Shown: positions 12,319 through 32,726 of the stretch, piece after piece | Layout: each line of letters starts with the position of its first letter | Numbering within the stretch: position 1 is the stretch's first letter | From: Chitinophagaceae bacterium | Lineage (GTDB): Bacteria; Bacteroidota; Bacteroidia; Chitinophagales; Chitinophagaceae | DNA length: 34,396 bases | Reading direction: 5' to 3' | Assembly (NCBI GenBank): GCA_019638615.1 | Contig: JAHBTL010000053.1 | Location: 1-34,396, forward strand | Notes under the pieces: model-generated | The model's database searches: none | What the model saw: only the letters and a program-made list of their open reading frames with translations | Told to the model about the DNA's origin: nothing | Made by a program: the position numbers and the translations under genes

Positions 12319-12357
12319 TTTATACAGAATACTGTTCTTTTTACCAGTTTTACGGAT
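12319..12357 (+). promoter_or_regulatory. 39-bp regulatory element, copy A
   Basis: The element reads TTTATACAGAATACTG followed by TTCTTTTTACCAGTTTTACG and GAT. It matches copy C (32688-32726) at 34 of 39 positions and copy B (13246-13282) almost as well. Two TTTTACC/TTTTACGG half-sites lie 10-11 bases apart, one helical turn, as expected for an AraC-type tandem site. It lies 61-99 bases upstream of the operon start; a weak -7 box (GAACTTTG on the minus strand) is at 12290-12297. Confidence 0.7.
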
Positions 12358-12461
12358 GTAGAACTTTGAGATAATGCTATTGGTGGTAGTTGAGCTATTT
12401 GTATAAACTTGTTGGATATATAATGCAAGTTGCAGGTGGTGCGAGGCGGCAGAGCTAACAG

Positions 12462-12577
12462 CTATTTCCCAACAATTTCATTTCTAAAATGAATGCCCCA
12501 TTTCAGAAACTCATCTAAAAGTTTGTCCGTTGACCTGCCAGGCGGAGTTAAAGAATATTCAACGGTTACAGGAAATG
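12462..12577 (-). pseudogene. HxlR regulator C-terminal fragment
   Basis: The minus strand reads PVTVEYSLTPPGRSTDKLLD followed by EFLKWGIHFRNEIVGK and a TAG at 12462-12464. This is almost identical to the end of the intact HxlR protein at 29570-29914. An in-frame TGA precedes it and the DNA-binding part is missing. It lies upstream of the oxidoreductase operon in the same orientation. The other parts of 12259-12701 hold element A and no further gene. Confidence 0.88.
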
Positions 12578-12701
12578 TATCTGTTCAAAGGAGAAAGAAT
12601 CAGCATATTTGTGTAAATTTATCTATATTCAAATAATATCCTTTTAAGTAAGCACGTATAGAAGCTTTGGGATTGATGGAAAAAATTGACCTTCAACTAA
12701 A

Positions 12702-13181
12702 ATGGATAATATGGAAAATTCAATGAACAAGGAGAATTATAAAAAACTCCTGCTGATGCTCTTTATATCATTTTGTGTTATGTATGCTGTGATGTTTCTT
12801 AATGTAGATAAGCTTGATCACGTTTATTTAAGTTTAACCAGGATGTATATGTCATTACTTATGGTAGCTCCAATGGCGGTATTGATGCTGATATTAATGC
12901 GAAAAATGTATTCAAACAAAAAAGTAAACACACTTATAATTTTATCGGGGGTTGCTGTCTTTATTATATCTTTGACGTTGTTAAGAACGCAGACCCCAAT
13001 AGGAGACAGGCAATACATGAAGGCAATGATACCTCATCATTCTTCTGCTATTTTGACTAGTAAACACGCAGATATACAAGATGCCGAGGTAAGAGAGCTT
13101 TCAAGGAAAATTATTGCATCCCAAGAAAGAGAGATACTCCAAATGAAGGCAATTTTGGAGAGGATGGAGAATGAAAAGTAA
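12702..13181 (+). CDS. DUF305 family membrane protein
   Basis: The 159-residue product has three membrane helices (about residues 15-35, 47-67 and 76-95) followed by a soluble DUF305 tail with the signature MKAMIPHHSSAILTSKHADI and the final block SQEREILQMKAILERM. DUF305 is a ferritin-like helical domain whose paired His are thought to bind metal, often near copper or metal resistance genes. Several Met codons (1, 4 and 8) could start it; the first is used. It stands alone between two decayed stretches. Confidence 0.85.
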   Translation: MDNMENSMNKENYKKLLLMLFISFCVMYAVMFLNVDKLDHVYLSLTRMYMSLLMVAPMAVLMLILMRKMYSNKKVNTLIILSGVAVFIISLTLLRTQTPIGDRQYMKAMIPHHSSAILTSKHADIQDAEVRELSRKIIASQEREILQMKAILERMENEK

Positions 13182-13245
13182 AGACTGTAACACCGCTTCA
13201 TTAAAAGCAAGCGACAAGCTCCTTCTTTTGTACACAGTTTACTTT

Positions 13246-13282
13246 TTGTACAGAACATAGTTCTTTTTACCGTTTTACGGAT
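13246..13282 (+). promoter_or_regulatory. 39-bp regulatory element, copy B
   Basis: The element reads TTGTACAGAACATAG then TTCTTTTTACCGTTTTACGG and AT. Relative to copies A and C it lacks one base between the two TTTTAC half-sites. It is followed by no convincing gene; the nearest downstream start is the receiver gene at 13522. The whole gap 13182-13521 holds only this element and a few short unsupported reading frames, so it may have lost its target gene. Confidence 0.6.
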
Positions 13283-13521
13283 CGATGACTTTTGATACGT
13301 CAATATGAGTGTCTTCAGATTTCAAATGAGCTAACCGGTACCCTTCATTTTTTGCAAGCCAGGGAAGTATTATCGGAAAGAATGCATTTGTTATTGTTGT
13401 GTAATTTCTACAAACATGTTTTAGGCATTCCGAAAGAAAAGCGGGAAAATCATTTTTTTAAGAATTGGCATTTAATATAAAAATTTTTGTTTTAACCTTG
13501 CGACCTTATCCCGTTAACTTT

Positions 13522-13917
13522 ATGCTGCAAGAAAAAAAGAAAATTATCCTGCTGATTGAACCCAACTCATTATTAAGAGAAGCCTACGCAAAATTTTTAA
13601 CCATATATGGTTATGAAGTAATCCAAAACAGCATGGGAACAGACATAGACGATTTACGTCAAACAAAAAAAATAGATATTGCGATAGTCAACGTTCGGCT
13701 AAATAGTATTTCAGGCATAGACGTAATTAGAACCATCAAAAACATAATGCCCGAAGTTAAAGCCGTTGGTATATCCTTCACCTTCCAGACCAGCTATGCT
13801 AAAGATTTAAAAGCCGCTGGCGCAAATGCATATTTACTTAAAGGAACGGATGAAAAAACTTTGCTATGCGTATTGAAGGAAGTATTTGATGATAAAGAAT
13901 ATTTTGTTACTCAATAA
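13522..13917 (+). CDS. Stand-alone receiver-like protein lacking the phospho-Asp
   Basis: The 131-residue product is a single CheY-like receiver domain with no output domain. The beta-1 strand IILLIEPN is followed by helix 1. The beta-3 strand IDIAIVNVRLNSISG places Asn57 where the phospho-accepting Asp normally sits. The N-terminal acidic pair is reduced to Glu13-Pro14, while Lys107 (YLLKGT) and the GANAYL turn are kept. The domain is therefore probably not phosphorylated and may work by protein contact, or be inactive. The ATG at 13522 is chosen because the domain begins right there. No kinase gene is nearby. Confidence 0.8.
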   Translation: MLQEKKKIILLIEPNSLLREAYAKFLTIYGYEVIQNSMGTDIDDLRQTKKIDIAIVNVRLNSISGIDVIRTIKNIMPEVKAVGISFTFQTSYAKDLKAAGANAYLLKGTDEKTLLCVLKEVFDDKEYFVTQ

Positions 13918-14489
13918 TACCCACCCGCACCGGTCAGTGTTTTCCACTTTCCCATTCTTGTTCTTCCAAATAATAATTGTCTTAACTCCTCATAAGCTAA
14001 ATTATTTTTCTTAAAGGTTTCACTGCCGATTCCTCTTTTCCCGGTCACTTATGCAGCAAAGATAGTCCGGTTTGCTGGACCTGTAAAGGCCAGATAAAGC
14101 GAATGCCTTTCGCATGCCAACTTGTGTTCGTTTACTGCACAATAAGGCTCTCTTTCATCCAACGATTACTTTATTGTGTTTGATATAATATTCGAGCTCC
14201 CGAAGCTTTTTAGTCATTTCATAATCCATATAGGTAATATTCTAACGAAAGAACGGCAGATATCTGACTACAACGCGGCTATTTTCCCCAAACTCATTAT
14301 TGCTAACGATCCATACGCACTGCCATTCATTGCACTGCAATCAGGACCGTACTTCTCCTGAGATATAAATTGGTGTCTTGCTTTTGACATATTCCCTAAA
14401 TTTACCGTAACTAAATTGAATTACATTTCTGCTCACTTTTTAAGGCAAAGCAAATAAATAGCAGAGAACTAACTTTTTAAAAGTAGCGC
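13918..14489. other. 572-bp gap without a convincing gene
   Basis: Only short frames are present. A minus-strand frame of 44 codons (13911-14048, GTG start, ending in KTLTGAGGYY) overlaps the end of the receiver gene, and a 61-codon plus-strand frame lies at 14176. Neither has a recognisable family, a good ribosome site or a signal. The promoter of the BCCT gene must lie near the right end. The stretch looks like decayed sequence. Confidence 0.4.
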
Positions 14490-16505
14490 ATGATAAAGTT
14501 TTCAGGAATTAGAACTACATTAAGCAAAGGAGTTGTCGTTCCGAGTTTGATTTTCATTATCGGAATTTGCCTGTTGTCTGCCCTTTACCCAAGGCTCACA
14601 GAAAACCTGCTCAGCTCCGTTAAGGATTTTATATTTGTTAACCTCAACTATGTCTATGTTTGGTCGGTAACGATTTTTGTCCTGTTCCTGATTTATCTGA
14701 TGTTCAGTAAATACGGTAATATCCGGTTGGGAAGAAATGACAGCAAACCGGATTACTCATTCTTTTCGTGGATTTCGATGCTGTTTGCTGCGGGTATGGG
14801 TATCGGGCTTATGTACTTTAGTGTTGCCGAGCCGATGCAGCATTATTCCAATGAAATATTTTCGGGAAATACCGCTGTCAAACGTGCTAAAGATGCACAG
14901 TTATACACTTTTTTTCATTGGGGTATTCATGCCTGGGCGATTTATGGGATTGTAGGATTATCGTTAGCCTACTTTGCTTATCGCTATCGCCTGCCGCTCT
15001 CTCTCCGGAGTTGCTTTTATCCATTATTGAAAGATAAAATCAAGGGTAAATGGGGTAATGCCATTGATGTGTTTGCGCTCTGCAGTACATTTTTTGGGAT
15101 TACCACTACGTTAGGATTTGGCGTGGTTCAAATCAATTCGGGGCTGGAAACTTTGGGAGTTTTACCAGGAAGCAGCTTTATGTATCACGTATTGATTGTG
15201 GCAGTGTTGGTTTCTCTTTCCATTATTTCCGCCGTAAGCGGTGTAGATAAAGGGGTAAGAATATTGAGCAACATCAACATTATAAGTGTTGTAGTTCTAT
15301 TGCTGTTTGTTTTACTTCTGGGTCCTACCGTATATCTGATAGGAAGCTTTACCGAAGGCATAGGAAGTTACATCAACAACTTCTTCAATCTTACATTCAA
15401 TACACACGTATATGAAGCAGAAACACAACCGTGGTTTTATAACTGGACAATACTGTATTGGGCGTGGTGGATTTCGTGGTCGCCTTACGTTGGGTTATTC
15501 ATCGCCAAGATTTCCAAGGGACGAACGATAAAGGAGTTTGTAGCAGCCGTTTTAATCATTCCTACCTTATTTAATTTTATCTGGATGTCGGTTTTTGGAA
15601 ACAGCGCGATATGGTTTGACCAACATATCGCCAACGGAGCATTGAGCCAGCTTGCAAGTAATCCTGATGCACTGATGTTCCGCTTCTTAGAATACCTGCC
15701 TTTAGCCAAAATAATCAGCTTTTTGGTTATTGCTATTATTATTATTTTCTTTGTTACCTCTGCCGATTCGGGTATGTTCGTGATGAACAGCATTGCTACA
15801 AAAAATGCCCGGATTTCCCCCAAATGGCAGACTATCGGATGGGGTGTCTTACTCGCAGTACTCGCCCTGATGTTGCTGAATGCCGGAGGGTTAAACGCCC
15901 TACAAAGCATGACACTGATAACTGCTTTACCATTTTCAATTATTATGCTGCTTTTCATCGTCAGTTTGGTCAAAGCATTATCCATTGACAGAAATTATTA
16001 TGAACGGGACTTTTCGGTGACGACTATTCCATGGTCAGGAGAGTCTTGGAAAAAGCGTTTGAAACAAATAGTCTCGTTCAATGATGCTCAATCTGTTAAT
16101 ATTTTTATCGGTACAGCGGTAAAAGAAGCATTTTTGGAATTGCAACAGGAATTTGCCAAAAACAATATTGAAACGAAAATCAATTCTTACGAAAATCCGC
16201 AAAGAATTGAAATTGAAATCCCGTACAATATCGTAAATAATTTTGTGTACGGTGTAAAAAATGATTCAAAAATAATATCTGATTACCTGCTCAGTGAAGA
16301 TAATCTGCCAGAGGTAGGAAATAACCGGACGTCCTTTCCGAAATCTTATTTTGGCGACGACAGAGAGGGATATGATGTCCAACTTTTTACGAAAAACGAA
16401 CTGATATCCGATGTACTGAAACATTATGAACGGTTTATAGAAATTATTTCCGAAGAAAGAAATAAAATATTTATCAGCAGCGATACTAACCGGAATATGA
16501 GATGA
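14490..16505 (+). CDS. BCCT-family transporter (betaine/choline/carnitine)
   Basis: The 671-residue product has twelve membrane helices and the BCCT signature: the glycine-rich stretch FAAGMGIGLMYFSVAEPMQH near residue 105 and the tryptophan-rich helix WTILYWAWWISWSPYVGLFI near residues 318-337. A cytoplasmic C-terminal tail of about 170 residues follows, similar in size to BetT-like proteins, where it takes part in osmotic control. It should import a quaternary ammonium compatible solute such as choline or betaine. No choline dehydrogenase is in the window, so a role as osmolyte uptake is more likely than catabolism. Confidence 0.92.
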   Translation: MIKFSGIRTTLSKGVVVPSLIFIIGICLLSALYPRLTENLLSSVKDFIFVNLNYVYVWSVTIFVLFLIYLMFSKYGNIRLGRNDSKPDYSFFSWISMLFAAGMGIGLMYFSVAEPMQHYSNEIFSGNTAVKRAKDAQLYTFFHWGIHAWAIYGIVGLSLAYFAYRYRLPLSLRSCFYPLLKDKIKGKWGNAIDVFALCSTFFGITTTLGFGVVQINSGLETLGVLPGSSFMYHVLIVAVLVSLSIISAVSGVDKGVRILSNINIISVVVLLLFVLLLGPTVYLIGSFTEGIGSYINNFFNLTFNTHVYEAETQPWFYNWTILYWAWWISWSPYVGLFIAKISKGRTIKEFVAAVLIIPTLFNFIWMSVFGNSAIWFDQHIANGALSQLASNPDALMFRFLEYLPLAKIISFLVIAIIIIFFVTSADSGMFVMNSIATKNARISPKWQTIGWGVLLAVLALMLLNAGGLNALQSMTLITALPFSIIMLLFIVSLVKALSIDRNYYERDFSVTTIPWSGESWKKRLKQIVSFNDAQSVNIFIGTAVKEAFLELQQEFAKNNIETKINSYENPQRIEIEIPYNIVNNFVYGVKNDSKIISDYLLSEDNLPEVGNNRTSFPKSYFGDDREGYDVQLFTKNELISDVLKHYERFIEIISEERNKIFISSDTNRNMR

Positions 16506-16537
16506 GTTTTAAAGGCAATAGTTTCTGATCTACTTAG

Positions 16538-16567
16538 TGTATACAACTTTTTACAAAAACGTATACA
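16538..16567. promoter_or_regulatory. Inverted repeat between BCCT and CE15 genes
   Basis: TGTATAC at 16538-16544 and GTATACA at 16561-16567 form a perfect 7-base inverted repeat with a 16-base spacer. There is no T-run after it, so an operator is likelier than a terminator. Confidence 0.35.
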
Positions 16568-16724
16568 TCAATCCCTTTGCCGTCAAAGGCTCTTTCCACG
16601 ACCCAGCTTCAGCATAAATTCAAAACAAACAGGATAAATTTTAATTTTGACCGGAATTATATAGTTAGTAGCTTGAATATAAATACCCTTTCAGGAGAGT
16701 TTCAATTAAGCTGAAAATTAAACT

Positions 16725-17930
16725 ATGACCAGGATGAATTGTTTTACAATTTTATTTCAGGCGTTCTTAATAATGTCGCTTCTGCATCCGGTGAAAGCAT
16801 TACTGGCACAGAATAAGAATTCCATGTCAATCCCTGTACACGAGTTACCTGAGATTGAAGAAATGCCTGATCCCCTTACCATGAATGACGGAGCAAAAGT
16901 TACCACATCAGATCAATGGCAAATACGTCGCCGGGAGATGATTCGTATTCTTGAAGATTATGAATACGGACATATGCCTCCACCCCCCGGAAATGTGAAA
17001 GCTACGATTATAACAGCTCAGTCTCGCGTTTTCGCAGATAAAGACAGCACTCTTGAAGCTAATTATCGTAAACTACACCTCACATTTGGTCCCGATGCAG
17101 CATGCGGATTTGATCTTGGTATATTTACACCGGGGGGAACGTCTAAAGCAGGATATCCCGTATTAATATCACTTGGTTTTAGCGCCGATAGTAAGAGTAT
17201 CTTTTCTGCTGCTGAGGCATTGAAACGCGGATATGCGGTGGTCACAATCCCTTATAATGAACTTGGCGCTGATGCTCAAAATTGGCGGGAAACGGCATTT
17301 TTTCCACACTATCCGGGATACGACTGGAGAGATTTCTCTGCATGGGCATGGGGTATATCCCGTGCTGTGGACTATTTGGAGACTGATTCAACTATTGATA
17401 AAGATAAAATCATTATAACCGGCGTTTCGCGCAATGCCCAGGCTGTAATGCTTGCAGGCGCTTTCGATGAGCGTATTGCCATGAGCGCCCCGGTAGCAGG
17501 AGGCATGGCATTACGTTTTTCAGGTAAGGAGATGGGGAACGGACTTGGCCAGGGGATTACTGAAGTTATTGATCAGAACACCTATTGGTTTGGACCTAAT
17601 TTCGAAAAATTTAGAAATCAAACCCCAAGACTTCCCTGTGACCAACACTGGCTTCCTGCGCTCACAGCGCCCAGGCTCTTTATCATGTGCAATGCCTATA
17701 GCGATCAGTATGGCAGGGCTTATGCGGCAATACAAACATTTTTAGGCGCCAAGCCTGTGTATGAAATGTTCGGCGTTAATGAAAATCTTGGTATGCATTT
17801 CCGTGAAGGCAGGCATGGCAGGACACAGGAGGACTGGGATGCATTACTGGATTTTGCCGACCAAAAACTACTGGGGAAAGCTGGCACAAGGATATTCAAT
17901 GAAATTCCACCGCAGGAGAAAACGCCATAA
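16725..17930 (+). CDS. CE15-like glucuronoyl esterase family protein, secreted
   Basis: The 401-residue product has an N-terminal signal (FLIMSLLHPVKALLAQ) and a CE15-type alpha/beta hydrolase. Visible family blocks are MIRILEDYEYGHMPPPP, the nucleophile elbow GVSRNAQA with Ser235, the substrate-side block DQHWLPALTAPRLF, and the catalytic His in GRHGRTQEDW (His364). CE15 enzymes cleave ester bonds between lignin and glucuronic acid on xylan. The usual GCSRxGK is altered here to GVSRNAQ: the Cys and the Lys are absent, so activity or substrate may differ. A 77-bp part around the nucleophile is duplicated at 28446-28521. Confidence 0.82.
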   Translation: MTRMNCFTILFQAFLIMSLLHPVKALLAQNKNSMSIPVHELPEIEEMPDPLTMNDGAKVTTSDQWQIRRREMIRILEDYEYGHMPPPPGNVKATIITAQSRVFADKDSTLEANYRKLHLTFGPDAACGFDLGIFTPGGTSKAGYPVLISLGFSADSKSIFSAAEALKRGYAVVTIPYNELGADAQNWRETAFFPHYPGYDWRDFSAWAWGISRAVDYLETDSTIDKDKIIITGVSRNAQAVMLAGAFDERIAMSAPVAGGMALRFSGKEMGNGLGQGITEVIDQNTYWFGPNFEKFRNQTPRLPCDQHWLPALTAPRLFIMCNAYSDQYGRAYAAIQTFLGAKPVYEMFGVNENLGMHFREGRHGRTQEDWDALLDFADQKLLGKAGTRIFNEIPPQEKTP

Positions 17931-18182
17931 AAAGTTATCAATAATGGCTATGTGGATTGATAATTGAGTTTATTGAACACGATCATCCCCCGTTACCTAC
18001 GTGCTGTTGCAAGCTGAACCACTATACTGGAATATTGAAAAAAGTGAAGGTAATGGCAAAATAGTTGCTTATTCAGGCAGCATTTCATTGCTGCAGGTAT
18101 TTTCAGCGAATCTGTAAACAGATCAAAAGCGAAATAGCGAAAAAGCCCAAAGGCAAAATCGTAGTCAGCCCTTTTAAAAAAA

Positions 18183-18536
18183 TTATTTCCCGATAACTTT
18201 TTTCCTGTGCAGCATTCCCCAATTTCGTAAAGCATCTAATACTTTATCTAAGGTCCTGGCGTGTGCCGTAAGCTCATACGTTACAGTTGGCGGAAACGAT
18301 TCAATAACCGTTCGCTTTACAAAGTGATTAGCTTCCAGATCTTTTAATTCTTTGGAGAGCATTTTATCGCTGATGCCTTCTACCTCGCGGGCAATTTGTT
18401 TAAACCGTTTAGTGCCGCCCGACAGAGAAACTAAAATCGGGAGCTTCCAGTTCCCGTTCAATGCTTCCATAGCATCTCTCACGGCCCGAATACCGGTGGC
18501 ATCGCATTTAGCTTCCGCTTTTTTCTGTGTTATCAT
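18183..18536 (-). CDS. HxlR-family redox-type regulator 1
   Basis: The 117-residue winged-helix protein has the HxlR blocks VRDAMEALNGNWKLPILVSL, RFKQIAREVEGISDKMLSKE and VTYELTAHARTLDKVLDALR. A single Cys near the N-terminus (AEAKCDATG, Cys11) is in the position used for thiol sensing in the QorR, YodB and YtfH group. The gene is divergent from an SDR quinone-reductase-like gene, as in the ytfH/ytfG and qorR/qorB pairs, and three tandem palindromes fill the gap. A minus-strand -7 box TAGTTTTG lies at 18546-18553, so the mRNA would be nearly leaderless from ATG 18536. Expected role: repressor released by quinones or electrophiles. Confidence 0.85.
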   Translation of the reverse strand: MITQKKAEAKCDATGIRAVRDAMEALNGNWKLPILVSLSGGTKRFKQIAREVEGISDKMLSKELKDLEANHFVKRTVIESFPPTVTYELTAHARTLDKVLDALRNWGMLHRKKVIGK

Positions 18537-18556
18537 AATTATATGCAAAACTATAA

Positions 18557-18607
18557 CTTACCGAAAGGATAGCACTAACCTACAGGTAAGTACTAACGTA
18601 TGGTTAG
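18557..18607. promoter_or_regulatory. Three tandem HxlR operator-like palindromes
   Basis: The sites are CTTACCGAAAGGATAG (18557-18572), CTAACCTACAGGTAAG (18575-18590) and CTAACGTATGGTTAG (18593-18607), at 18-base spacing, so all face the same side of the helix. The shared pattern is CTWACC-N4-GGTWAG. Site 1 adjoins the regulator's -7 box, and site 3 lies where the -33 region of the SDR promoter should be. The same pattern occurs twice at 29930-29963 before the other HxlR gene. Confidence 0.75.
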
Positions 18608-18617
18608 CAAATATAAA

Positions 18618-18625
18618 TAACTTTG
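18618..18625 (+). promoter_or_regulatory. -7 box of the SDR-DoxX-SDR-pirin operon
   Basis: TAACTTTG is an exact match to the Bacteroidota -7 consensus TAnnTTTG, 34 bases before the ATG at 18660 and just downstream of the third operator palindrome. Confidence 0.6.
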
Positions 18626-18659
18626 TACCAGAAAAATCGCTTCACGCAAAAAATATAAA

Positions 18660-19544
18660 ATGAGCAACATCTTAATTACGGGAGCATCAGGGCGCCTTGG
18701 AGAATTGGTTATCTATTCACTTCTGGAAAAAGGCATCGAAGCCAATCAGATTTCGGCATTGGTAAGAAACCCGGAAAAAGCCGAAGCTTTGAAGAATAAA
18801 GGCGTGAACTTAAAAATTGGAGATTATGACAATTACGCATCATTGGTAAATGCGTTCAAAGGAGCAGACAAGTTGTTGTTTGTTTCGGCAAACGATATGA
18901 ATAAACGTGTATCCCAACACGAAAATGTGGTAAAAGCTGCAAAAGAGGCTGGGGTAAGGCACGTTGTTTACACCAGTATTGAACGGAAAAATGAAACTGA
19001 AAAATCTCCTTTATGGGTGATTACGGAAGCGCATCTGAGTACGGAAAAATGGCTGAAAGAGAGCGGGCTAACCTATACTATTCTCAAAAACAACCTGTAT
19101 ATGGATTATATTCCTGTTTTTATTGGCAATAAAGTGTTGGAAACGGCAACCATTTATCTGCCTGCAGGAAACGGAAAAGTGAGCGCTGCCCTGCGTTCTG
19201 AATATGCAGAAGCTACAGCCAATGTGCTTACTTCGGAAGAACACGAAAACAAAGCCTACGACTTTACAAACGTGGAAGCGTACAGCTATAACGATGTGGC
19301 AAAATACATTTCCGAAATCACGGGAAAAACCATTCAATACGTTTCGCCAGGTGCAGACGAATTTATGCAGGCACTTACCGATGCAGGTGTTCCTGCCGAA
19401 GGCATCGGGGTGTTGTTGGGTTTTGCGGTAGCACAAGACCAGGGTGATTTGGATTTTATAAGCAAAGATTTGGAAAACCTGCTGGGCAGAAAACCAACCG
19501 CATTGAAGCCGTATTTGGAAACCGTTTATTCATCTGAAAACTAA
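18660..19544 (+). CDS. NmrA/QorB-like SDR oxidoreductase (quinone reductase type)
   Basis: The 294-residue product is an atypical SDR with the NAD(P)-binding motif ITGASGRLGE at 6-15, the strand ISALVRNPEKAEAL, and VVYTSIERKN near residue 104. It ends with an extended C-terminal substrate domain (DFISKDLENLLGRKPT). The length and blocks fit the YtfG/QorB group of NADPH quinone oxidoreductases. Divergence from an HxlR gene with a sensing Cys supports the assignment. It should detoxify quinones in the cytoplasm. It leads an operon with DoxX, a second NAD(P)-binding protein and pirin. Confidence 0.87.
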   Translation: MSNILITGASGRLGELVIYSLLEKGIEANQISALVRNPEKAEALKNKGVNLKIGDYDNYASLVNAFKGADKLLFVSANDMNKRVSQHENVVKAAKEAGVRHVVYTSIERKNETEKSPLWVITEAHLSTEKWLKESGLTYTILKNNLYMDYIPVFIGNKVLETATIYLPAGNGKVSAALRSEYAEATANVLTSEEHENKAYDFTNVEAYSYNDVAKYISEITGKTIQYVSPGADEFMQALTDAGVPAEGIGVLLGFAVAQDQGDLDFISKDLENLLGRKPTALKPYLETVYSSEN

Positions 19545-19549
19545 AAATT

Positions 19550-19948: not shown

Positions 19949-19964
19949 TTTAAGTTTGTAAAAA

Positions 19965-20597: not shown

Positions 20598-20608
20598 AAC
20601 AGGAAAAA

Positions 20609-22250: not shown

Positions 22251-22283
22251 ATCAAATATCAATTAACAAATAAAACAGGTAAA

Positions 22284-22859: not shown

Positions 22860-22878
22860 TCGTTTCCCTTTCAAAAGA

Positions 22879-23925: not shown

Positions 23926-23945
23926 CGCCACAGCAATAATTTGAT

Positions 23946-24419: not shown

Positions 24420-24465
24420 TAGCTAAAAACAACAGACGCTGCAAGGGTTTGACGTAATATGCACT

Positions 24466-24488
24466 AAATGACGATTACAACGTCATTT
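24466..24488. terminator. Bidirectional stem-loop between convergent genes
   Basis: AAATGACG and CGTCATTT form a perfect 8-base stem around a 7-base loop (ATTACAA), with T-rich sequence after it on the plus strand and a short A/T-rich stretch on the other side. It lies between the convergent glutathione peroxidase and heme oxygenase genes. Confidence 0.65.
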
Positions 24489-24535
24489 TATTCAATATTC
24501 ACTGCTAAATATATCTGTTCCGCATTTAATATTTA

Positions 24536-25105: not shown

Positions 25106-25147
25106 AATGTTTGTAACTGATTCTTTTAAAAATGGTGAGCCTGCCTT

Positions 25148-25690: not shown

Positions 25691-26316
25691 TATAGTTTTA
25701 TTTTCGCCAGAACTTCTTCATATTTTTTTTCTACGGCAGCCCAGTTGAGAACAGCCCAGAAAGCATCTAAATAATCAGCGCGTTTGTTTTGGTATTTCAG
25801 GTAGTAGGCGTGCTCCCAAACATCAACACCCAATATCGGATAACCCTGGTTGGTCAAATTAGTATCCATTAAAGGATTGTCCTGGTTAGCCGTAGCCGAA
25901 ATACTTAATGTACCGTTATGTTTGACCAGCAGCCAGGCCCAGCCTGAACCGAATTGTGTCAAACCTGCTTGTTTTATTTGAACTTTCAACTCATTAAGGT
26001 TCCCGAAAACCGTATTGATCTCTTCCGCCAGTTTTCCTTCCGGAGCAGTTTTAGCCTGAGGCGATAAAATCTCCCAAAACAACGAGTGGTTGTAATGCCC
26101 GCCGCCATTATTTCTTACGGCAGCGCTGTACTTGCTGATGTTACGTAGAAGATGCTCCAATGTTTCTTTCTCCGCATCTGTTCCTGCAATGGCCTTGTTC
26201 AGGTTGTCAACATAAGCCTGATGGTGTCGTTGATGGTGGATCGTCATCGTTTCTTTATCAAAATGAGGCTCTAATGCATCATAAGCGTAAGTCAACCCAG
26301 GTAATGTGTAACTCAT
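25690..26316 (-). CDS. Superoxide dismutase, Fe/Mn type
   Basis: The 208-residue product carries all four metal ligands: His27 in MTIHHQRHH, His in GGHYNHSLFW, and Asp and His in DVWEHAYYLKY. The block GSGWAWLLV is present, and GGGHYNHSLFW with QDNPLMD leans to manganese or cambialistic use. It removes superoxide in the cytoplasm. The start has a strong ribosome site (AAGGAAG). It heads an operon divergent from a cysteine-rich regulator, with a 28-bp inverted repeat between them. Confidence 0.95.
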   Translation of the reverse strand: MSYTLPGLTYAYDALEPHFDKETMTIHHQRHHQAYVDNLNKAIAGTDAEKETLEHLLRNISKYSAAVRNNGGGHYNHSLFWEILSPQAKTAPEGKLAEEINTVFGNLNELKVQIKQAGLTQFGSGWAWLLVKHNGTLSISATANQDNPLMDTNLTNQGYPILGVDVWEHAYYLKYQNKRADYLDAFWAVLNWAAVEKKYEEVLAKIKL

Positions 26317-26367
26317 TTCTTCCTTTTTTTAAGATTATGAATGTTGCAAATTTAGAGAGCTATCTCA

Positions 26368-26395
26368 AATAAACCAAGTAAATGATTGGTTTATT
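26368..26395. promoter_or_regulatory. 28-bp operator-like inverted repeat, sodA-regulator gap
   Basis: AATAAACCAA at 26368-26377 and TTGGTTTATT at 26386-26395 are perfect 10-base arms with an 8-base spacer, 52 bases upstream of the superoxide dismutase start and 107 bases upstream of the regulator start. The size and symmetry suit a dimeric winged-helix regulator, most simply the divergent SufR-like protein. Confidence 0.7.
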
Positions 26396-26501
26396 ATTTT
26401 AAACAAAAATGCAGAAATGCTATTCAGCAGGCAGTTTTCCCCGGCATTTTCTATATTTGTTTAACTTTACAATCCTGATAAAACAACTTATTTGTTGTAT
26501 A

Positions 26502-27146
26502 ATGAGAAAAAATACCTCAGACAAAATACTGATGATTTTAAAAATGCGGGGCGAAGTATCCGTAGCATCCTTAGCAACCGAACTGGGTATTACCAAAGAA
26601 GGTGCCCGTTTACATTTACTCAAGATGACGAAGGAAGGCTGGGTGCAATCCACGTCCAAAAGTGCGGGCGTGGGAAGACCTGTAGCCTGTTATTCTATAT
26701 CTGAGAAAGGATTATCAAAGTTTCCTGACACGCATGCCCAGATTACAATAGAACTTTTACGGTCGGTAAAAAAGCTTTTAGGAGAAAATGCGCTGGATTT
26801 ATTGATCAGTGACAGGGAAACACAGGTATATCAACGTTACCAGGAAAAATTAAAAGGTGCTTTAACAATAGAAAAGTACTTGAGCCGGTTGAGCCAGATC
26901 CGTTCCGATGAAGGTTATATGGCAGAATGGAAAAAAGAGAGAGGCGAATACTTTTTGATAGAAAATCATTGCCCTATATGTGCCGCTGCTACCGAGTGTC
27001 AGGGGTTTTGCCGTAGTGAACTGAAAAACTTCAAACAACTTATAGGCGATAAATTTGAAGTGGAAAGAGTGCAACATATTGTTTCGGGTGGGCAGCGATG
27101 TGTGTATCGGATAAGATCAATGCGCAGTAAAACCGGCTCTGAATAA
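26502..27146 (+). CDS. SufR-like winged-helix regulator with a cysteine cluster
   Basis: The 214-residue product has an N-terminal winged HTH (LMILKMRGEVSVASLATELG, then GITKEGARLHLLKMTKEGW and VGRPVACYSISEKG). The C-terminal half has HCPICAAATECQGFC and a later Cys in GGQRCVYRI. That cysteine set resembles the iron-sulfur ligands of SufR-family sensors. It is divergent from superoxide dismutase, so the protein probably senses iron-sulfur damage or iron and controls the SOD-FMN reductase-heme oxygenase operon. ATG 26502 is chosen because the upstream in-frame region from 26409 is not HTH-like and runs through the promoter gap. Confidence 0.85.
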   Translation: MRKNTSDKILMILKMRGEVSVASLATELGITKEGARLHLLKMTKEGWVQSTSKSAGVGRPVACYSISEKGLSKFPDTHAQITIELLRSVKKLLGENALDLLISDRETQVYQRYQEKLKGALTIEKYLSRLSQIRSDEGYMAEWKKERGEYFLIENHCPICAAATECQGFCRSELKNFKQLIGDKFEVERVQHIVSGGQRCVYRIRSMRSKTGSE

Positions 27147-27376
27147 GAAACGAACACTGTGCTGCAAAGGGAGCAGGGTATTATGAAAGTGATATCAATA
27201 ATCTGCCTGCGGTTGATAGAATTACCGTTTAGCCCATACCATAAAAGTAACTAAACCGGAATTTTAAAAAGCTTATCCCGATTTCTATTATGCTATCATT
27301 CCTTATGAACATTGCGTCAGGGAAAAGTTGGTTGCTTAAGAGAATATATAAAAAACTACTAAACGCCGCATAAAAA

Positions 27377-28021
27377 ATGAACATCTTTCTTTTGGGTGCA
27401 ACGGGAAATACCGGGGGTGAGATCTTAAAGAGGTTAATCCCTGAAAAATATACCATAAAAATTTTGGTTCGCAATCCTGCAAAGCTAAATCTTACAGAAC
27501 TTAAGCAATTCAATCAGGTAGAACTTATACAAGGTGATGTTTTTGAACCTGGCAAATTAATGAAACATTTCAAGGGAAATGATTTAGTCATTTCCGCTTT
27601 AGGTACAGGAAAGGACAATAGCTATACTGAAATCTATTCGCAAGGCGGTAAAAATATACTGTCGGCAATGCGGATCAATGGGATCAGAAAGCTCATAACC
27701 ATTACATCGGGCCTGATTGATATGAGCGACCCGTCAACAGACAATTTTTTTATGAACCGTATTATTCGGCCTAACTACAACAAAGTATACTATGATCAAA
27801 CCCGTTGGGAAACTATATTGGACAATACAACAGATATTGATTGGGTTTGTGTTCGACCTACAAACCTGCTTAATAAGCCGTTTACAGGAAAATACAGAAT
27901 TAACCTGAACCATTGCCCAAAAGGCGGTTGGAAAATCGGCCGGGCTGACCTTGCGGATTTCATAATAAAACAAATAGATTCAAATGAATTTGTGCATCAA
28001 AAACCTGTAATAGCATATTAA
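27377..28021 (+). CDS. NAD(P)H-binding SDR-like protein, paralogue
   Basis: The 214-residue product has the N-terminal motif LLGATGNTGGEILKRLIP, the block VISALGTGKDNSY near residue 72, ITITSGLIDM near residue 109 and IGRADLADFIIKQ near the end. The layout parallels the protein at 19965-20597. It binds NAD(P)H and may reduce small electrophiles; the substrate is unknown. It is not in an obvious operon; 230 bases on its left hold no gene I can recognise. Confidence 0.8.
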   Translation: MNIFLLGATGNTGGEILKRLIPEKYTIKILVRNPAKLNLTELKQFNQVELIQGDVFEPGKLMKHFKGNDLVISALGTGKDNSYTEIYSQGGKNILSAMRINGIRKLITITSGLIDMSDPSTDNFFMNRIIRPNYNKVYYDQTRWETILDNTTDIDWVCVRPTNLLNKPFTGKYRINLNHCPKGGWKIGRADLADFIIKQIDSNEFVHQKPVIAY

Positions 28022-28194
28022 CCGTAAAAAACTATTCATTCCTGGACTTGCTTTTCGTTTCCTGTAATAAGGCTTGCATTAAAATATGCAGATACTATGT
28101 TTAGGACAGCAATAGAGCGCGATTTTGTATTGCTAAAGCATTTTCCATGCTTTTGCCGGGGTATGGGATTTTTTTTAAAAATCATTAAACAACT

Positions 28195-28404
28195 ATGGTA
28201 GCTGTATTCAAAACAACTGTAAATAATAAGAAAGATGCTAAAAAAGTATTAGGGACTTTAGAAACAGTATTTACATCCGCCAGGATAAACTTTGATCTGG
28301 AAGATTGCGACAATATTTTGAGGGTTGAGGCAAACAATATTGATATAGAATTGGTGCAAAAAGTATTGTTTCAACATGGACATCATTCAGAATTGCTTGT
28401 TTGA
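28195..28404 (+). CDS. Small 69-residue ferredoxin-like-fold protein
   Basis: The product is 69 residues: VFKTTVNNKKDAKKVLGTLE, INFDLEDCDNILRVEANNID and a C-terminal HGHHSELLV. The beta-alpha-beta spacing and size recall HMA-like or ACT-like small domains seen widely in Bacteroidota, but the CxxC metal motif of HMA proteins is missing; one Cys and a terminal His cluster remain. Function is unknown. It is monocistronic, with the CE15 fragment downstream. Confidence 0.65.
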   Translation: MVAVFKTTVNNKKDAKKVLGTLETVFTSARINFDLEDCDNILRVEANNIDIELVQKVLFQHGHHSELLV

Positions 28405-28445
28405 TTATTTAATGCATCCGGGAAATTAACACGTGTGAAAAAAAA

Positions 28446-28521
28446 CCGTGCTGTAGACTATTTGGAGACTGATTCAACGATTGATAAAGTAAAATCATTA
28501 TAACCGACGTTTCGCGCAATG
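28446..28521 (+). pseudogene. CE15 esterase fragment (copy of 17360-17436)
   Basis: These 76 bases match 17360-17436, the part of the CE15 gene encoding RAVDYLETDSTIDK through GVSRN, with three substitutions and one deleted base that shifts the frame. Similarity ends sharply on both sides; an SDR fragment follows. Confidence 0.9.
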
Positions 28522-28539
28522 ATAGGTTTACCTGATCAA

Positions 28540-28709
28540 TTTCCTGCTCCTGCAAAGCGCTTTTCACACCCAAAGAAATAGCTCAAATCATTTATAAAGC
28601 CATAACTGACGGCAAGAACCAATTGCGTTGCCTTAAGGCAAAACCACAGTAACACGCTATGCAAGGCGATGGAAATAGGTGCGGAAGAATTTAGAAAGAA
28701 AACCAAACA
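28540..28709 (+). pseudogene. Short-chain dehydrogenase C-terminal fragment
   Basis: Plus-strand reading gives TPKEIAQIIYKAITDGKNQL near 28570-28626. After a frame change, AMEIGAEEFRKKT appears near 28670-28700. These are the terminal blocks of the Bacteroidota SDR group ending EIAQxIYKAVTDGK...RLEIGAEAFRKE. The fold and active site are absent and at least one frameshift is present. Confidence 0.75.
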
Positions 28710-29217
28710 ATGGAAGTATTTGTAACAGGAGCTTCGGGCTTCATAGGCGTTGCGATAGTAAGAGAACCAATAAATGCAGGACATCAGGTGATTGATTTAG
28801 CAAGTTCGGAAAAATCTGCAAAAGCAATCAGCGCAGCAGGTACAGAAGTATTAAATTGCGATCCTGAAGATTGGGAAACCTTAAAACAGGGTGCTTTGCA
28901 GGCTGACGGTATTGTTCACACTGCTTTTTGTCACGACTTTACGCAATTCGTAAAATCCAGCGAAATGAACAAGAATGCCGTTAGCGCAACAGGCGAAGCG
29001 CCGGAGAAAAAAGAAAAACCAATAGCTGTAACTTCTAAAATGTTGGAGTTGCCGCTTATCAACGGATTTGTAACGGAAGATAGCTCTACGCAAAATGCAG
29101 TAAGAGTTTCGGAAGTTAGGCGTTGGTGTTGGCACAAGTTTCAAAACACAGAAACAATTAGGTTGGAAACCTGCACAAATCGGTTTATTAGACGATATGC
29201 AACAAAACTATTTTTAA
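28710..29217 (+). pseudogene. NAD-dependent epimerase-like gene with an internal deletion
   Basis: The start encodes VFVTGASGFIGVAIVREPIN, HTAFCHDFTQFVKSSEMNK and LPLINGFVTEDSS, an extended-SDR N-terminal half of about 145 residues. After RVSEV the frame shifts, and LGWKPAQIGLLDDMQQNYF, the true end of this family, appears in another frame with TAA at 29215-29217. About 150 residues of the middle are missing. The reading frame that runs on to 29432 joins it artificially to the next gene. Confidence 0.82.
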
Positions 29218-29219
29218 TT

Positions 29220-29432
29220 ATGAGTAAAAGTATTCAGCACAAAAAAACATTTTTAACGTGGCTTGCCATTTACCCTATAATAACTATTTTGCTTTGGCTG
29301 TTTGGCGAGTATCTTTTACAAATTCCGTTACCGTTAAGAACATTGGTGCTGACATTGGTTTTAGTACCGTTGCTTTCTTATGTGGTACTACCTTTTTACA
29401 ATAAGATTTTTTCAAAATGGTTAAACAAATAA
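29220..29432 (+). CDS. Small two-helix membrane protein
   Basis: The 70-residue product starts MSKSIQHKKTFLTWLAIYP and has two membrane helices (about residues 11-31 and 37-60) and a basic end (FYNKIFSKWLNK). The pattern, with its LRTLVLTLVLVPLLSYVVLP helix, is common in small uncharacterised Bacteroidota membrane proteins. Its ATG follows the TAA of the epimerase pseudogene by 2 bases and is in frame with that gene's first half, which explains the false fused frame. Function unknown. Confidence 0.65.
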   Translation: MSKSIQHKKTFLTWLAIYPIITILLWLFGEYLLQIPLPLRTLVLTLVLVPLLSYVVLPFYNKIFSKWLNK

Positions 29433-29450
29433 AAAATATGAAATACCAAC

Positions 29451-29486
29451 GCCGCCACAAACGTCAGGCTGACAGACGTTAGCGGC
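29451..29486. repeat. Nested inverted repeat after the small membrane gene
   Basis: Outer arms GCCGC and GCGGC enclose inner arms AACGTC (29460-29465) and GACGTT (29475-29480). There is no T-run, so a plain terminator is unlikely. It resembles the structured element at 31605-31812 in position after a single small gene. Confidence 0.45.
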
Positions 29487-29569
29487 AATAGAAGGACGAC
29501 CCCACAAACCCTACTGACCAAACTCTGACTGACAAGCACTCCCCGACATCAAGAACCGGGCTATTTTAT

Positions 29570-29914
29570 CTATCTTCCAACGATTTCATTTCTAAAATGA
29601 ATACCCCATTTCAGAAACTCATCTAAAAGTTTGTCCGTTGACCTCCCAAGCGGGGTCAAAGAATATTCAACAGTTACAGGCATACTATCATACAAAGTAC
29701 GACTGATGATTTTATTTTCCTCTAACGCCTTTAATTCCTGCGACAACATTTTAGGAGAAATACCAATCTCTCTTTGAATTTCTCCAAAACGCTTATCCTC
29801 ATCAGTGAGAGAAATAATAATTGGAATACGCCATTTGCCCTGAAGCACTTCCATAGCATCTTTTCCCGCCATTAATCTATACTGACAAGTTTCTTTTTTA
29901 ATTGCTTTTGCCAT
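29570..29914 (-). CDS. HxlR-family regulator 2
   Basis: The 114-residue product has a redox-type Cys near the N-terminus (KKETCQYRL, Cys10) and the HxlR blocks AMEVLQGKWRIPIIISLTDE, KRFGEIQREIGISPKMLSQE and VTVEYSLTPLGRSTDKLLDE. It is divergent from a DoxX gene, with two tandem palindromes between them. The C-terminal part is nearly identical at DNA level to the fragment at 12462-12577. Role expected: thiol-sensing repressor of the DoxX-pirin genes and of itself. Confidence 0.87.
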   Translation of the reverse strand: MAKAIKKETCQYRLMAGKDAMEVLQGKWRIPIIISLTDEDKRFGEIQREIGISPKMLSQELKALEENKIISRTLYDSMPVTVEYSLTPLGRSTDKLLDEFLKWGIHFRNEIVGR

Positions 29915-29929
29915 TGTTTTCCAGATTTA

Positions 29930-29963
29930 CTTACCTGAAGGTAACTACTTACCACAAGGTAAC
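29930..29963. promoter_or_regulatory. Two tandem HxlR operator-like palindromes
   Basis: CTTACCTGAAGGTAAC (29930-29945) and CTTACCACAAGGTAAC (29948-29963) each hold a perfect TTACC-N4-GGTAA and are spaced 18 bases apart. They match the three sites at 18557-18607. A possible plus-strand -7 box (TACTTTGG) lies at 29991-29998 before the DoxX gene. Confidence 0.75.
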
Positions 29964-30022
29964 AACTATATTTTAGAAAGCTAAAATAACTACTTTGGCC
30001 GAAATAATTAAATAAAAGAAAA

Positions 30023-30388
30023 ATGAAAAAGAACAAAATCATTTATTGGACAGCAACCGTATTAATGTTGCTTAGCGGAGTATCAACAGCTCCGATGTAT
30101 TTTACCAACCCAATGCTTATAGAAACAATTCGCCATCTGGGTTTTCCTGATTATTTCAGAATTGAATTAGGTATATTCAAAATAATCGGTGCGGTTGTAT
30201 TGCTGTTACCAATTATACCGACAAAATTCAAAGAATGGGCTTATGCAGGTTTTGCAATCACATTTATTTCTGCATTTATAGCGCATTCTGTAATAGATGG
30301 TTTCCCAGCTTCTATCTTCCCATTAATACCACTTGCGTTTTTGGTAGTGTCTTACATTTATCTTCATAAGAACATCGCAACAAAATAG
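30023..30388 (+). CDS. DoxX-family membrane protein 2
   Basis: The 121-residue product has four membrane helices: WTATVLMLLSGVSTAPMYF, LGIFKIIGAVVLLLPIIP, WAYAGFAITFISAFIAHSV and IFPLIPLAFLVVSYIYL. The order and the ETIRHLGFPDYFRIELG loop fit the DoxX-like family. It is divergent from HxlR 2 and parallels the DoxX gene at 19550, suggesting a duplicated membrane redox module. Confidence 0.85.
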   Translation: MKKNKIIYWTATVLMLLSGVSTAPMYFTNPMLIETIRHLGFPDYFRIELGIFKIIGAVVLLLPIIPTKFKEWAYAGFAITFISAFIAHSVIDGFPASIFPLIPLAFLVVSYIYLHKNIATK

Positions 30389-30490
30389 TGTGCAAAATCA
30401 TTCCCGGAGACGCGTCTTATGCATACTCTCCTGGAGTACCAGATCAGCATTTGGCTTGCCCAGATTCATTTTGCAAAAAAATTATTTTCA

Positions 30491-31321
30491 ATGAACAAAA
30501 AAGTAATAAAAAAGACCGATACAACATTTAATCTCATTGCAAAAGGACTTATTGGCACGGGCTTCTTTGAAAAGGATTTTCCTATTGAACCCTTTTTGCT
30601 CTTTTCAGAATTTCGGATGTGGGACCAGGTTTTCGGGCCACATCCACACGCAGGCGTTTCGGTTATGACCTATATGCGACCTGACAGTAAAGAAAGTTAT
30701 ATAAACAGAGATAGTTTGAGTAGTATGAGCTTTATTGAACCCGGTGGCTTACAAATTATGCAAGCAGGAAGCGGGATGCACCACGATGAATTTCCAAAAG
30801 TTCAAGGTGTAGAAACAAGTGGGTTTCAAATTTGGTTTAATCATTCGGCTAAAAATCGTTTGGTAACGCCCAAATCCATTCACGTAGATGCAAAAGATGT
30901 TCCCGAAGTAACATCAGAAAATGCTTTGGTAAGAATAGTTCACGGGACTTATGGCGGTAAAAGCACCGCACACAAAATGGTAACAGATGTTGACCTTTTG
31001 CACGTTTATCTGAAACCGCACAAGAGCATTACGATACCTACCAAACCAATGGCTTTTGTATATGGTATGGAGGGCAGTGGGACGACAGAAAACGAAAAAA
31101 TATTACCCAAAACAATGATTAATTATTCACTGGACGGAGATAATATTACTATAAAGGCTGGTCAGGACGGGTTGGAATTTATGCTTGGAAGTGGTAGCCC
31201 ACATAATGAACCGATAGTTTACGGTGGGCCATTCGTAGCTACTACATCCGAACAGTTAGAAGAAATACAGCGTAGATATTCACGAGGCGAAATGGGAACA
31301 TTAGAACCTTATACATATTAG
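30491..31321 (+). CDS. Pirin family protein 2
   Basis: The 276-residue product has the classical pirin metal site: FGPHPHAGVSVMTYM (HxH) and the later GSGMHHDEFPK (His and Glu). A conserved FQIWFNHSAKNR and a C-terminal GGPFVATTSEQLEEIQRRYS follow. It binds iron and may act as a quercetinase-like dioxygenase or redox sensor. ATG 30491 is chosen since the domain starts there; the in-frame ATG at 30419 would add an unrelated leader. It lies 102 bases after DoxX 2. Confidence 0.9.
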   Translation: MNKKVIKKTDTTFNLIAKGLIGTGFFEKDFPIEPFLLFSEFRMWDQVFGPHPHAGVSVMTYMRPDSKESYINRDSLSSMSFIEPGGLQIMQAGSGMHHDEFPKVQGVETSGFQIWFNHSAKNRLVTPKSIHVDAKDVPEVTSENALVRIVHGTYGGKSTAHKMVTDVDLLHVYLKPHKSITIPTKPMAFVYGMEGSGTTENEKILPKTMINYSLDGDNITIKAGQDGLEFMLGSGSPHNEPIVYGGPFVATTSEQLEEIQRRYSRGEMGTLEPYTY

Positions 31322-31389
31322 AATTATATTCCCAATCCTCATTTTGGTTATGTAATACCTCATTCCTGTTATTTCTTTTCTTGCCGGGC

Positions 31390-31405
31390 GATGCAAATTT
31401 GCATC
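31390..31405. repeat. 16-bp perfect palindrome
   Basis: GATGCAAATTTGCATC is its own reverse complement. It lies 16 bases before the ATG of the NmrA fragment at 31422, where an operator or hairpin could sit. Confidence 0.6.
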
Positions 31406-31421
31406 AATAAAAATCAGGGAA

Positions 31422-31574
31422 ATGAATATTGTATTAACAGGTTCTTTAGGGAACATAGGAAGGCCACTTACAAAAGCATTGGTAGAAAAAGGACACACGG
31501 TAACTGTAAAATGGGCTTTTACAATGGTTGGGGCTCAGCGCTTAACAGACTTGAAGAGCTATTGCCGTCATTGA
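31422..31574 (+). pseudogene. NmrA-like SDR, N-terminal fragment
   Basis: The frame opens with MNIVLTGSLGNIGRPLTKAL and VEKGHTVTV, the complete N-terminal dinucleotide-binding unit of NmrA-type proteins. After about 30 residues it runs into unrelated sequence (WAFTMVGAQRLTDL) and stops at 31572-31574. Only the first beta-alpha-beta unit remains. In the paralogous module at 18660 an SDR gene of this type is next to DoxX and pirin, so this may be the remnant of the matching gene. Confidence 0.78.
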
Positions 31575-31604
31575 CGAAATAGAAAGTATTGGAATAAGCC
31601 GACT

Positions 31605-31812
31605 AACGAATAGCGTATGCTGCTATCGTTTTTGCGTAATGGCGGGTTAAGTACGAACTTCAACTTTTGTGCTTCTATCCCGCCAATACTTTTTTGTATT
31701 GGCTCTTTTTTTTAATTTAGCCAACGAAAAAATGCATTGGCTAAAGTAGTGCTAAATTGAACATTTATGCTTCGATTGCCGATACTACGCAAAGCCGCCG
31801 GCTGTTACCAGC
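31605..31812. repeat. Structured noncoding element with nested inverted repeats
   Basis: The 340-bp gap 31575-31914 has no gene but at least five inverted repeats. These are AACGAATAGC/GCTATCGTT (31605-31630), TTTGCGTA/TACGCAAA (31631-31638 and 31786-31793), TGGCGGG/CCCGCCA (31640-31646 and 31679-31685), GCCAATAC/GTATTGGC (31682-31703) and TTTAGCCAA/TTGGCTAAA (31716-31745). The arms are nested or serial, as in a folded RNA or single-strand recombination site. Confidence 0.6.
31682..31713 (+). terminator. Intrinsic terminator for the plus strand
   Basis: A perfect 8-base stem (GCCAATAC/GTATTGGC) with a T6 loop is followed by TCTTTTTTTT. It would end transcription from the pirin gene and the fragment after it. 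Confidence 0.75.
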
Positions 31813-31914
31813 AACCCTACGAACCAACAGCTTGTCCATGCAGAACAGCAACATAAGCTCTTTCATATTTTGTTGTTGTTATTTTTTGTTGGTTGCGTCA
31901 TCAAAGAGAAAAAA

Positions 31915-32394
31915 TCAGTCTGTAGCTTCCCACAACTGCACTTTATTTCCTTCTGCATCGAGAATATGGACAAATTTGCCATAGTCATAGGCTTCTATTT
32001 TGTCCACAATGATTACGCCTTCTTTTTTCAGCTCTTCAGCAAGCGCTTCCAGGTTTTCAACCCGGTAGTTTATCATGTAATCCTTGTCAAAATATTTTGA
32101 GTCTTCCGGAAAAGGAGTCCATTGCGTCTGGGCTTTTTTGGTTTTTTCGCTGTCTTCGTACCATTCAAAAGTTGCTCCGTAAGGATTGGTTTCCAGTCCT
32201 AAATGTTTTTGATACCATTCGTTCATTTTTTTCGGGTCTTTGCATTTAAAGAAAATACCACCGATTCCAGTTGCTTTTTTCATGTTATTGTTATTATCTA
32301 TTGTTAAGGTTTTAAATTTAAATCCGAGGCAGAAAGTCAGGATAAGCAATCCGCCGGTTAAAATTTTTCGTTTCATTCTTTGATTATTTGTCAT
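31915..32394 (-). CDS. VOC-family (glyoxalase-like) protein with a membrane anchor
   Basis: The 159-residue reading has a signal or anchor segment (MKRKILTGGLLILTFCLGF) and a VOC domain starting GIGGIFFKCKDPKKMNEWYQ. It has FVHILDAEGNKVQLWEATD at the end, which supplies the metal-binding Glu. VOC proteins are glyoxalases, dioxygenases or resistance proteins. Most homologues of this type start at the internal Met before KKATGIGGIFF (32283), so the exported form is a choice: either starts at 32394 or 32376, or the cytoplasmic form at 32283. The 32394 start overlaps the stop of the NTF2-like fragment (ATGA). Confidence 0.75.
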   Translation of the reverse strand: MTNNQRMKRKILTGGLLILTFCLGFKFKTLTIDNNNNMKKATGIGGIFFKCKDPKKMNEWYQKHLGLETNPYGATFEWYEDSEKTKKAQTQWTPFPEDSKYFDKDYMINYRVENLEALAEELKKEGVIIVDKIEAYDYGKFVHILDAEGNKVQLWEATD

Positions 32395-32492
32395 TTATTT
32401 GTTCTGCAAGACTCAAAGGCTTTTCGTGATTGTCCTTCGGAAGTAAGTTTCAAAAAGGCTTGTGCAATTTCTTTCTTTGTCGGCATATCCAT
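32391..32492 (-). pseudogene. NTF2/SnoaL-like protein, N-terminal fragment
   Basis: The minus strand reads MDMPTKKEIAQAFLKLTSEG then QSRKAFESCRTNK and TGA at 32391-32393. The start is the usual beginning of small SnoaL-like (nuclear transport factor 2 fold) proteins of about 120-140 residues, but only 33 remain. Its stop overlaps the first possible ATG of the VOC gene, so it could still be translated as a short leader peptide. Confidence 0.65.
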
Positions 32493-32687
32493 TTGTGTTT
32501 AGTTACAAATTTAAAAACTCTATTTTTTTATCAGCTTTGCATAAGGCAAGAAATTGAATGCTGCTTTTGAAGCTAACAGGATTATTCTTTTTTGGTATCA
32601 TAAAATCACACAAATATTTCAATCTGTTAGTTGTTTACCTCTCGCCTTGCCAAAGGGGTATCGCTTGCATTTTCCTGTTACCCCCGG

Positions 32688-32726
32688 TTTATACAAAACA
32701 CATTTCTTTTTACCACTTTTACGGAT
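32688..32726 (+). promoter_or_regulatory. 39-bp regulatory element, copy C, upstream of AraC gene
   Basis: TTTATACAAAACACATTTC continues as TTTTTACCACTTTTACGGAT and matches copy A at 34 of 39 positions. A -7 box TAAATTTG lies at 32764-32771 and a weak -33 box TCTG at 32740-32743 (20-base spacer), so the element is centred about 70 bases upstream of the predicted transcription start. This is a usual place for an AraC-type activator site. Confidence 0.7.

Follow-up and report, generated by a model that had tools for sequence, protein, structure and literature searches.

Why should a 39-bp element next to a redox operon recur some 20 kb away, in front of a gene for an AraC-type regulator? The question is raised by contig JAHBTL010000053.1 of assembly GCA_019638615.1 (Chitinophagaceae bacterium), whose whole 34,396 nt are called “the window” here; the genome to which it belongs (G000) comprises 7.18 Mb. 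The window carries three copies of the element on the + strand: A (12319..12357), beside a seven-gene redox operon (6896..12258, - strand), B (13246..13282), and C (32688..32726), upstream of araC (32790..33686, + strand). From comparison with related genomes, we consider it probable (ca. 0.8) that the element is the operator of the AraC protein encoded at 32790, that it once lay in a divergent promoter shared by araC and the operon, and that this promoter was split, with A and C each retained. An initial annotation of the window had proposed that this protein controls both itself and the distant operon. That proposal gains comparative support from the tracking of the element with the regulator's clade (10 of 10 orthologues), the tandem layout of the element, its non-dispersed occurrence, and the gene layout in four relatives (G123, G189, G187, and G006).

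Copies of the element and their distribution

The positions and letters given for the three copies in the initial annotation were exact, and its comparisons held as well: A and C are identical at 34 of 39 positions, and B has a 1-bp deletion, the missing base falling in the second of the two boxes described below. A weight matrix was constructed from nine elements of other genomes only, and 200 first-order Markov random windows served as the null. A scored 55.0 and C 47.9 against a random maximum of 20.5; with matrix column 28 or 29 removed, B scored 46.0 or 42.0 (random maximum 17.3). Twenty-four columns show no variation among the nine other genomes. All of these are kept in A, 23 in C, and 21 in B, whose losses are A4, C14, and the deleted base in box 2. 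B is located downstream of the DUF305 gene and has no promoter box on either side (see below). Since it has lost three invariant columns and lacks both boxes, this degenerate copy is probably a relic. B may, as was suggested earlier, mark a third target that has been lost, although such a target would be indistinguishable from a lost araC promoter.

The core TTTTTACCNNTTTTACGGAT, with up to two mismatches allowed, was found in the whole genome at A and C only, while the same pattern written backwards, used as a control, gave three chance matches. A 39-bp model whose training set included A and C, and not B, returned 49.3 bits for A, 43.3 for C, and 27.9 for B in G000, with 14.3 bits for the next best place; at E ≤ 0.01, its three matches in the 7.18 Mb all fell within the window. 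The initial annotation had named many copies genome-wide as the finding that would speak for a dispersed repeat. The core and model scans gave no dispersed copies and rule out a dispersed repeat or a miniature inverted-repeat transposable element.

The model was also applied to 394 genomes of the family Chitinophagaceae, where it gave 14 matches of at least 30 bits: A itself and 13 that precede an araC homologue. The training set had contained 11 of the 14. Those outside it (in G106, G305, and G263) all lie 5′ of araC homologues, the G106 element preceding a 27-residue araC remnant (63% identical; L117 9718-9900) that is a decayed copy of the regulator. Matches at E ≤ 0.01 were obtained in 70 genomes in total, and the gene-by-gene assignment covers the matches of at least 30 bits. 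The short core was rejected as a marker. A scan of 195 family genomes with up to one mismatch located it at 17 places, spread over 15 genomes, and the full 39-bp element was recognized by eye at five of these places (A, C, and the elements of G123, G006, and G189); among 15 contig records with the exact core, one (that of G123) combines the full element with an adjoining araC. Because so few core matches are accompanied by the full element, the core alone is not diagnostic.

The AraC protein, two element variants, and their anatomy

The araC gene encodes an AraC/XylS-type regulator of 298 residues. Its C-terminal double helix-turn-helix (HTH) was matched above gathering thresholds by PF12833 (E 9e-19) and PF00165 (E 2e-15), with HTH_18 at residues 219-296; a Pfam scan of the N-terminal domain gave no match. 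For fold prediction, 27 of 30 AraC proteins were used, and the resulting model had a predicted local distance difference test (pLDDT) score of 83 and a predicted template-modeling (pTM) score of 0.63. When its N-terminal domain was submitted to Foldseek, target TM scores of 0.70-0.74 were obtained for the RhaR regulatory domain and of 0.60-0.66 for AraC (1xja/2arc); the domain is thus predicted to adopt an AraC/RhaR-type ligand/dimerisation fold.

Matches to the protein at E 1e-40 or better were present in 206 of the 394 genomes. Ten orthologues are 73-100% identical to it, and in all ten the element stands 5′ of araC, its first base 102-104 bp from the start codon (in the window, the gap between C and the ATG at 32790 is 63 bp). 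The initial annotation had proposed such a comparison of element presence with AraC homologues in relatives, and it came out in favor of the pairing. At the same place, the next 20 homologues (≤62% identity) carry a distinct, related variant, termed element 2 here; that of the window and its orthologues is element 1. In a tree of the 30 proteins, which has a midpoint root only, one branch with a support of 100/100 parts the 10 from the 20. Residue 276 is Q in 10/10 and P in 20/20, and it is the sole fixed difference inside the DNA-binding domain (read in all 30). It opens the second (last) recognition helix of the model, and Q276 aligns with the first Q of the MarA segment ESQQTLTR, a residue of MarA that we take to contact DNA. 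Residue 276 is accordingly put forward as a candidate specificity residue. This AraC group is common in Chitinophagaceae and is undescribed among the open-licence PMC papers that the searches brought up; the same searches yielded no description of the 39-bp element.

Element 2 (GTATACnGATTACTG...CTACCAATATTACTGAT) was aligned from 17 elements at 10 loci; its bearers include G359, G239, G310, G279, G030, G086, and contig 66 of the window genome. Like the window, these relatives have the element at the same place before araC and with a 21-bp period. A second copy is present in seven of the 10 loci, in six of them before a neighboring divergent gene set, and in those six it points away from that set, just as A points away from the operon. 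The copies are 0.2-4 kb apart, compared to 20.3 kb for A and C. In a scan of eight chosen genomes, exactly two copies were found in six, which are all training sources of the element-2 model, and none in G123 and G189. The AraC paralogue on contig 66 is preceded by a variant element of its own, and the neighboring CMD gene by a second. These two-copy loci suggest that separate operators, one for the regulator itself and one for the operon, are common among the element-2 relatives; the window equals this arrangement over a longer distance.

Each alignment was compared with itself at shifts of 7-27 bp. The best self-match occurred at 21 bp in both, with column-permutation p values of 0.006 (element 1) and <0.001 (element 2), uncorrected for the 21 shifts; shifts of 19, 9, and 15 bp gave p values of 0.03-0.04 in one alignment each. 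High-information boxes at positions 1-16 and 22-37 are separated by a poor gap (21.5, 3.0, and 24.5 bits for box, gap, and box in element 1). No good palindrome, as an inverted-repeat reading would have it, was found at the centers scored in the element. Judged from these alignments, the element is composed of two putative tandem boxes two helical turns apart, the layout of an AraC operator. The likeness to AraC-type tandem operators had been noted in the initial annotation, and the tandem layout stands, but the half-site spacing of one helical turn does not, the period of 21 bp being two turns. The two TTTTAC strings that it took for half-sites (spacing 9 bp; 8 bp in B) both lie inside one box.

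Known systems offer parallels. In the E. coli AraC/araBAD system, two tandem half-sites (araI1-araI2) are similarly found near the -35 region, presumably at ca. -35 to -70, and the N-terminal domain of AraC has the same fold as predicted for the protein at 32790. The two systems differ in that the element sequence is unrelated, and sugar catabolism takes the place of the redox genes found here. A counterpart of the araO2 looping site was not identified, no search having been aimed at one. Symmetric dimers of the AraC family can read direct repeats through flexible domain joints, according to a portion of PMC9723621. In the portion of PMC5806209 on CdhR/caiX of Pseudomonas aeruginosa, an araC-family gene is divergent from a catabolic operon, as here, and the CdhR half-sites are 6-bp direct repeats with a 15-bp spacer, i.e. 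the 21-bp period of the 39-bp element; CdhR also lowers the expression of its own gene, which may be likened to the autoregulation proposed for araC. CdhR/caiX differs in phylum, ligand, and site sequence, and the same portion of PMC5806209 describes no split between regulator and operon.

The redox operon and the proposed split of a divergent promoter

Open reading frames (ORFs) and Pfam/NCBIfam matches define the operon, whose genes encode a cyclophilin-like protein, a mandelonitrile-lyase-type cupin, a CMD-family protein, a DUF2255 protein, a Zn-alcohol dehydrogenase (ADH), an aldo/keto reductase (AKR), and an EamA transporter. In the nearest relative, G123 (same genus; AraC 97% identical), a single element lies between araC and a divergent homologous operon in which six of the seven genes are recognized. 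That operon (L063 6967-8577) seems to be decaying, with ADH missing, AKR in two frames, and EamA truncated. The same layout, a single element between araC and a divergent homologous operon, is found in G189 and G187, and in G006 the divergent partner is a homologue of the CMD gene. A divergent ORF stands opposite araC in 9/9 other element-1 loci. Given the divergent operon homologues in relatives and a divergent gene in every locus, a shared divergent promoter is the likelier ancestral state, the direction of change being judged by parsimony over ten genomes.

The boundaries of the split were located with blastn. On the operon side, the alignment to G123 reaches the last base of A; on the araC side, it begins with the first base of C. 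Without gaps, 33/45 bases match G123 to the left of A and 16/75 to its right; for C, the figures are 13/45 on the left and 68/75 on the right. Between the operon and araC of G123, the 20.3-kb segment that separates A from C (12358..32687) is missing. A split of the shared promoter would account both for the distance between A and C and for the orientation of A. The initial annotation had A in the opposite orientation to the operon, beside its -33 region, which was confirmed, and this backward orientation is plausibly the ancestral one.

Promoter boxes are distributed likewise. Box patterns were drawn up after the aligned flanks had been viewed. All nine other loci share two boxes: a leftward one, [GT]AnnTTTG, at a distance of 20-21 bp from the element, and a rightward one, TAnnTTTG[TC]A, at 37-38 bp. 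In the window, A has the left box only, C the right box only, and B neither. The predicted -7 box of the operon (12290..12297, - strand; GAACTTTG on that strand) is 21 bp from A, and that of araC (32764..32771, + strand; TAAATTTG) is 37 bp from C. A section of PMC9723704 gives the sigma-A box of a flavobacterium as TAnnTTTG at -12 to -5. By that position, A, the predicted AraC operator of the redox operon, would occupy ca. -34 to -72 relative to the predicted start site of the operon, and C, the predicted autoregulatory operator of araC, ca. -50 to -88 relative to that of araC. A leftover araC was sought to the right of A and of B, and none was found there. A TTTG ca. 41 bp to the right of A was considered as a decayed araC promoter; it lacks the TAnn part and was not counted.

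The following course of events is proposed. A dimer of the AraC protein would bind the two 16-bp boxes set 21 bp apart. The ancestral divergent promoter would have held a single operator adjoining the -33 region of the operon and lying farther upstream of araC. When this promoter was split, A would have been left beside the operon with its -7 box, and C beside araC with the -7 box of that gene, with 20.3 kb now between the halves, and the regulator would still be able to act on both; B would be a decayed third copy. AraC binding, activation of the operon, autoregulation of araC, and the order of events are what we infer from the genomic comparison. The enzyme families perhaps hint at a reactive carbonyl or other electrophile as the inducer. 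The locus yields a testable set of operator, regulator, and target, with two operator variants and one candidate specificity residue, and it may be regarded as a natural experiment: a shared divergent promoter parted by 20 kb, with its own operator kept on each half.

Competing explanations and the mobile setting

Several observations weigh against this account. None of the nine other element-1 genomes has two strong copies; the split layout is thus not conserved independently elsewhere, and A might be a leftover without activity. Only four of the nine other loci have homologues of the window operon directly alongside. C departs from the G123 element at 5/39 positions, one of which (position 16) is invariant in the nine others. 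The 21-bp period would not be significant for element 1 alone after correction for the shifts and is carried by element 2. Finally, AraC paralogues of the window genome (at least two) and a second AraC-type gene in the window (2131-3285) might bind the elements too.

That A is a silent remnant of a lost divergent araC promoter, with the operon now regulated otherwise, would agree with the search for a second copy above 40 bits, which among the 394 genomes gave one in the window genome only, and with the right flank of A, which has no recognizable promoter box or araC remnant. We nevertheless regard it as unlikely: none of the 24 invariant columns is lost in A, the -7 box on the operon side still lies at the ancestral distance, and A resembles the G123 element more closely (38/39) than C does (34/39). 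The element might instead be the operator of another regulator, e.g. an AraC paralogue, and araC at 32790 only a target. The window genome has three AraC-family matches at E 1e-40 or better, 32790 included, in addition to the AraC-type HTH gene at 2131-3285, the N-terminal half of which is apparently membrane-spanning (by eye). This explanation is quite unlikely, given that the element variant tracks the clade of the adjacent AraC and that the contig 66 paralogue has a variant element of its own. The least probable, and in our estimation a very improbable one, is that A, B, and C have no regulatory role and are repeats of a recombination or attachment site, a duplicated core on either side of an integrated 20-kb segment. 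A and C are indeed direct repeats, the breakpoints of the 20.3-kb segment fall at their edges, and the G123 module is cargo beside relaxase and tyrosine recombinase genes. But the element is kept before araC in 9/9 other loci, at least in G123 without the insert, homology to G123 is lost on only one side of each copy, and a Pfam scan of the 23 main ORFs that separate A from C, one of them without any match, gave no recombinase domain.

The same setting invites a more speculative extension of the split-promoter account, which we hold to be doubtful: that the operator acts as a seam in mobile cargo, at which recombination between copies splits or fuses regulator and target while each half keeps a working operator. 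If so, regulons could be rearranged without loss of control, A and C being such joints and B a failed third. In G123 (L063 5494-18873), the module is cargo beside relaxase, NikA/MobC-like, primase-like, HTH_17, and tyrosine recombinase genes. The window starts, at 1-701, in the cargo-border gene of this mobilizable element (90.9% identity over 700 bp). A second mobilizable element on contig 20 of G000 (L129, L130) has a 5-kb backbone that is 89% identical, and that contig ends in the cargo-border gene in which the window starts.

By Pfam, redox and stress families account for most of the 23 main ORFs of the A-C segment: HxlR, NmrA, DoxX, pirin, DsbA, YceI, luciferase-like, glutathione peroxidase, heme oxygenase, FMN reductase, SOD, and glyoxalase. 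The Pfam scan of these 23 ORFs gave no transposase domain either, and the ORF at 26409-27146 had no Pfam match of any kind. A source of the segment was sought in 11 genus-mates, in which 18000-24500 gave only short matches (up to ca. 600 bp); 12358-13500 gave only fragments.

Several short repeats were noted in the window. The 3′ end of the cargo-border gene (414-569) is repeated at 1552-1707 (156 bp, 92%) and 6795-6849 (55 bp, 89%), as though the end of that gene had received cargo more than once. A fragment just to the right of A (12462-12572) repeats, with 92% DNA identity, the final 39 codons (29570-29680) of the HxlR gene that occupies 29570-29914. A 77-bp piece (17360-17436) of the glucuronyl-esterase-like gene at 16725-17930 recurs 11 kb away at 28446-28521 (95%), and no more extensive copy turned up. 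Such short direct duplications fit repeated rearrangement of the cargo. To the left of C lies a short - strand frame (32395-32494) that looks by eye like the beginning of a SnoaL-like gene and is followed by a gene of the glyoxalase family; the frame may be what remains of the former divergent partner of C.

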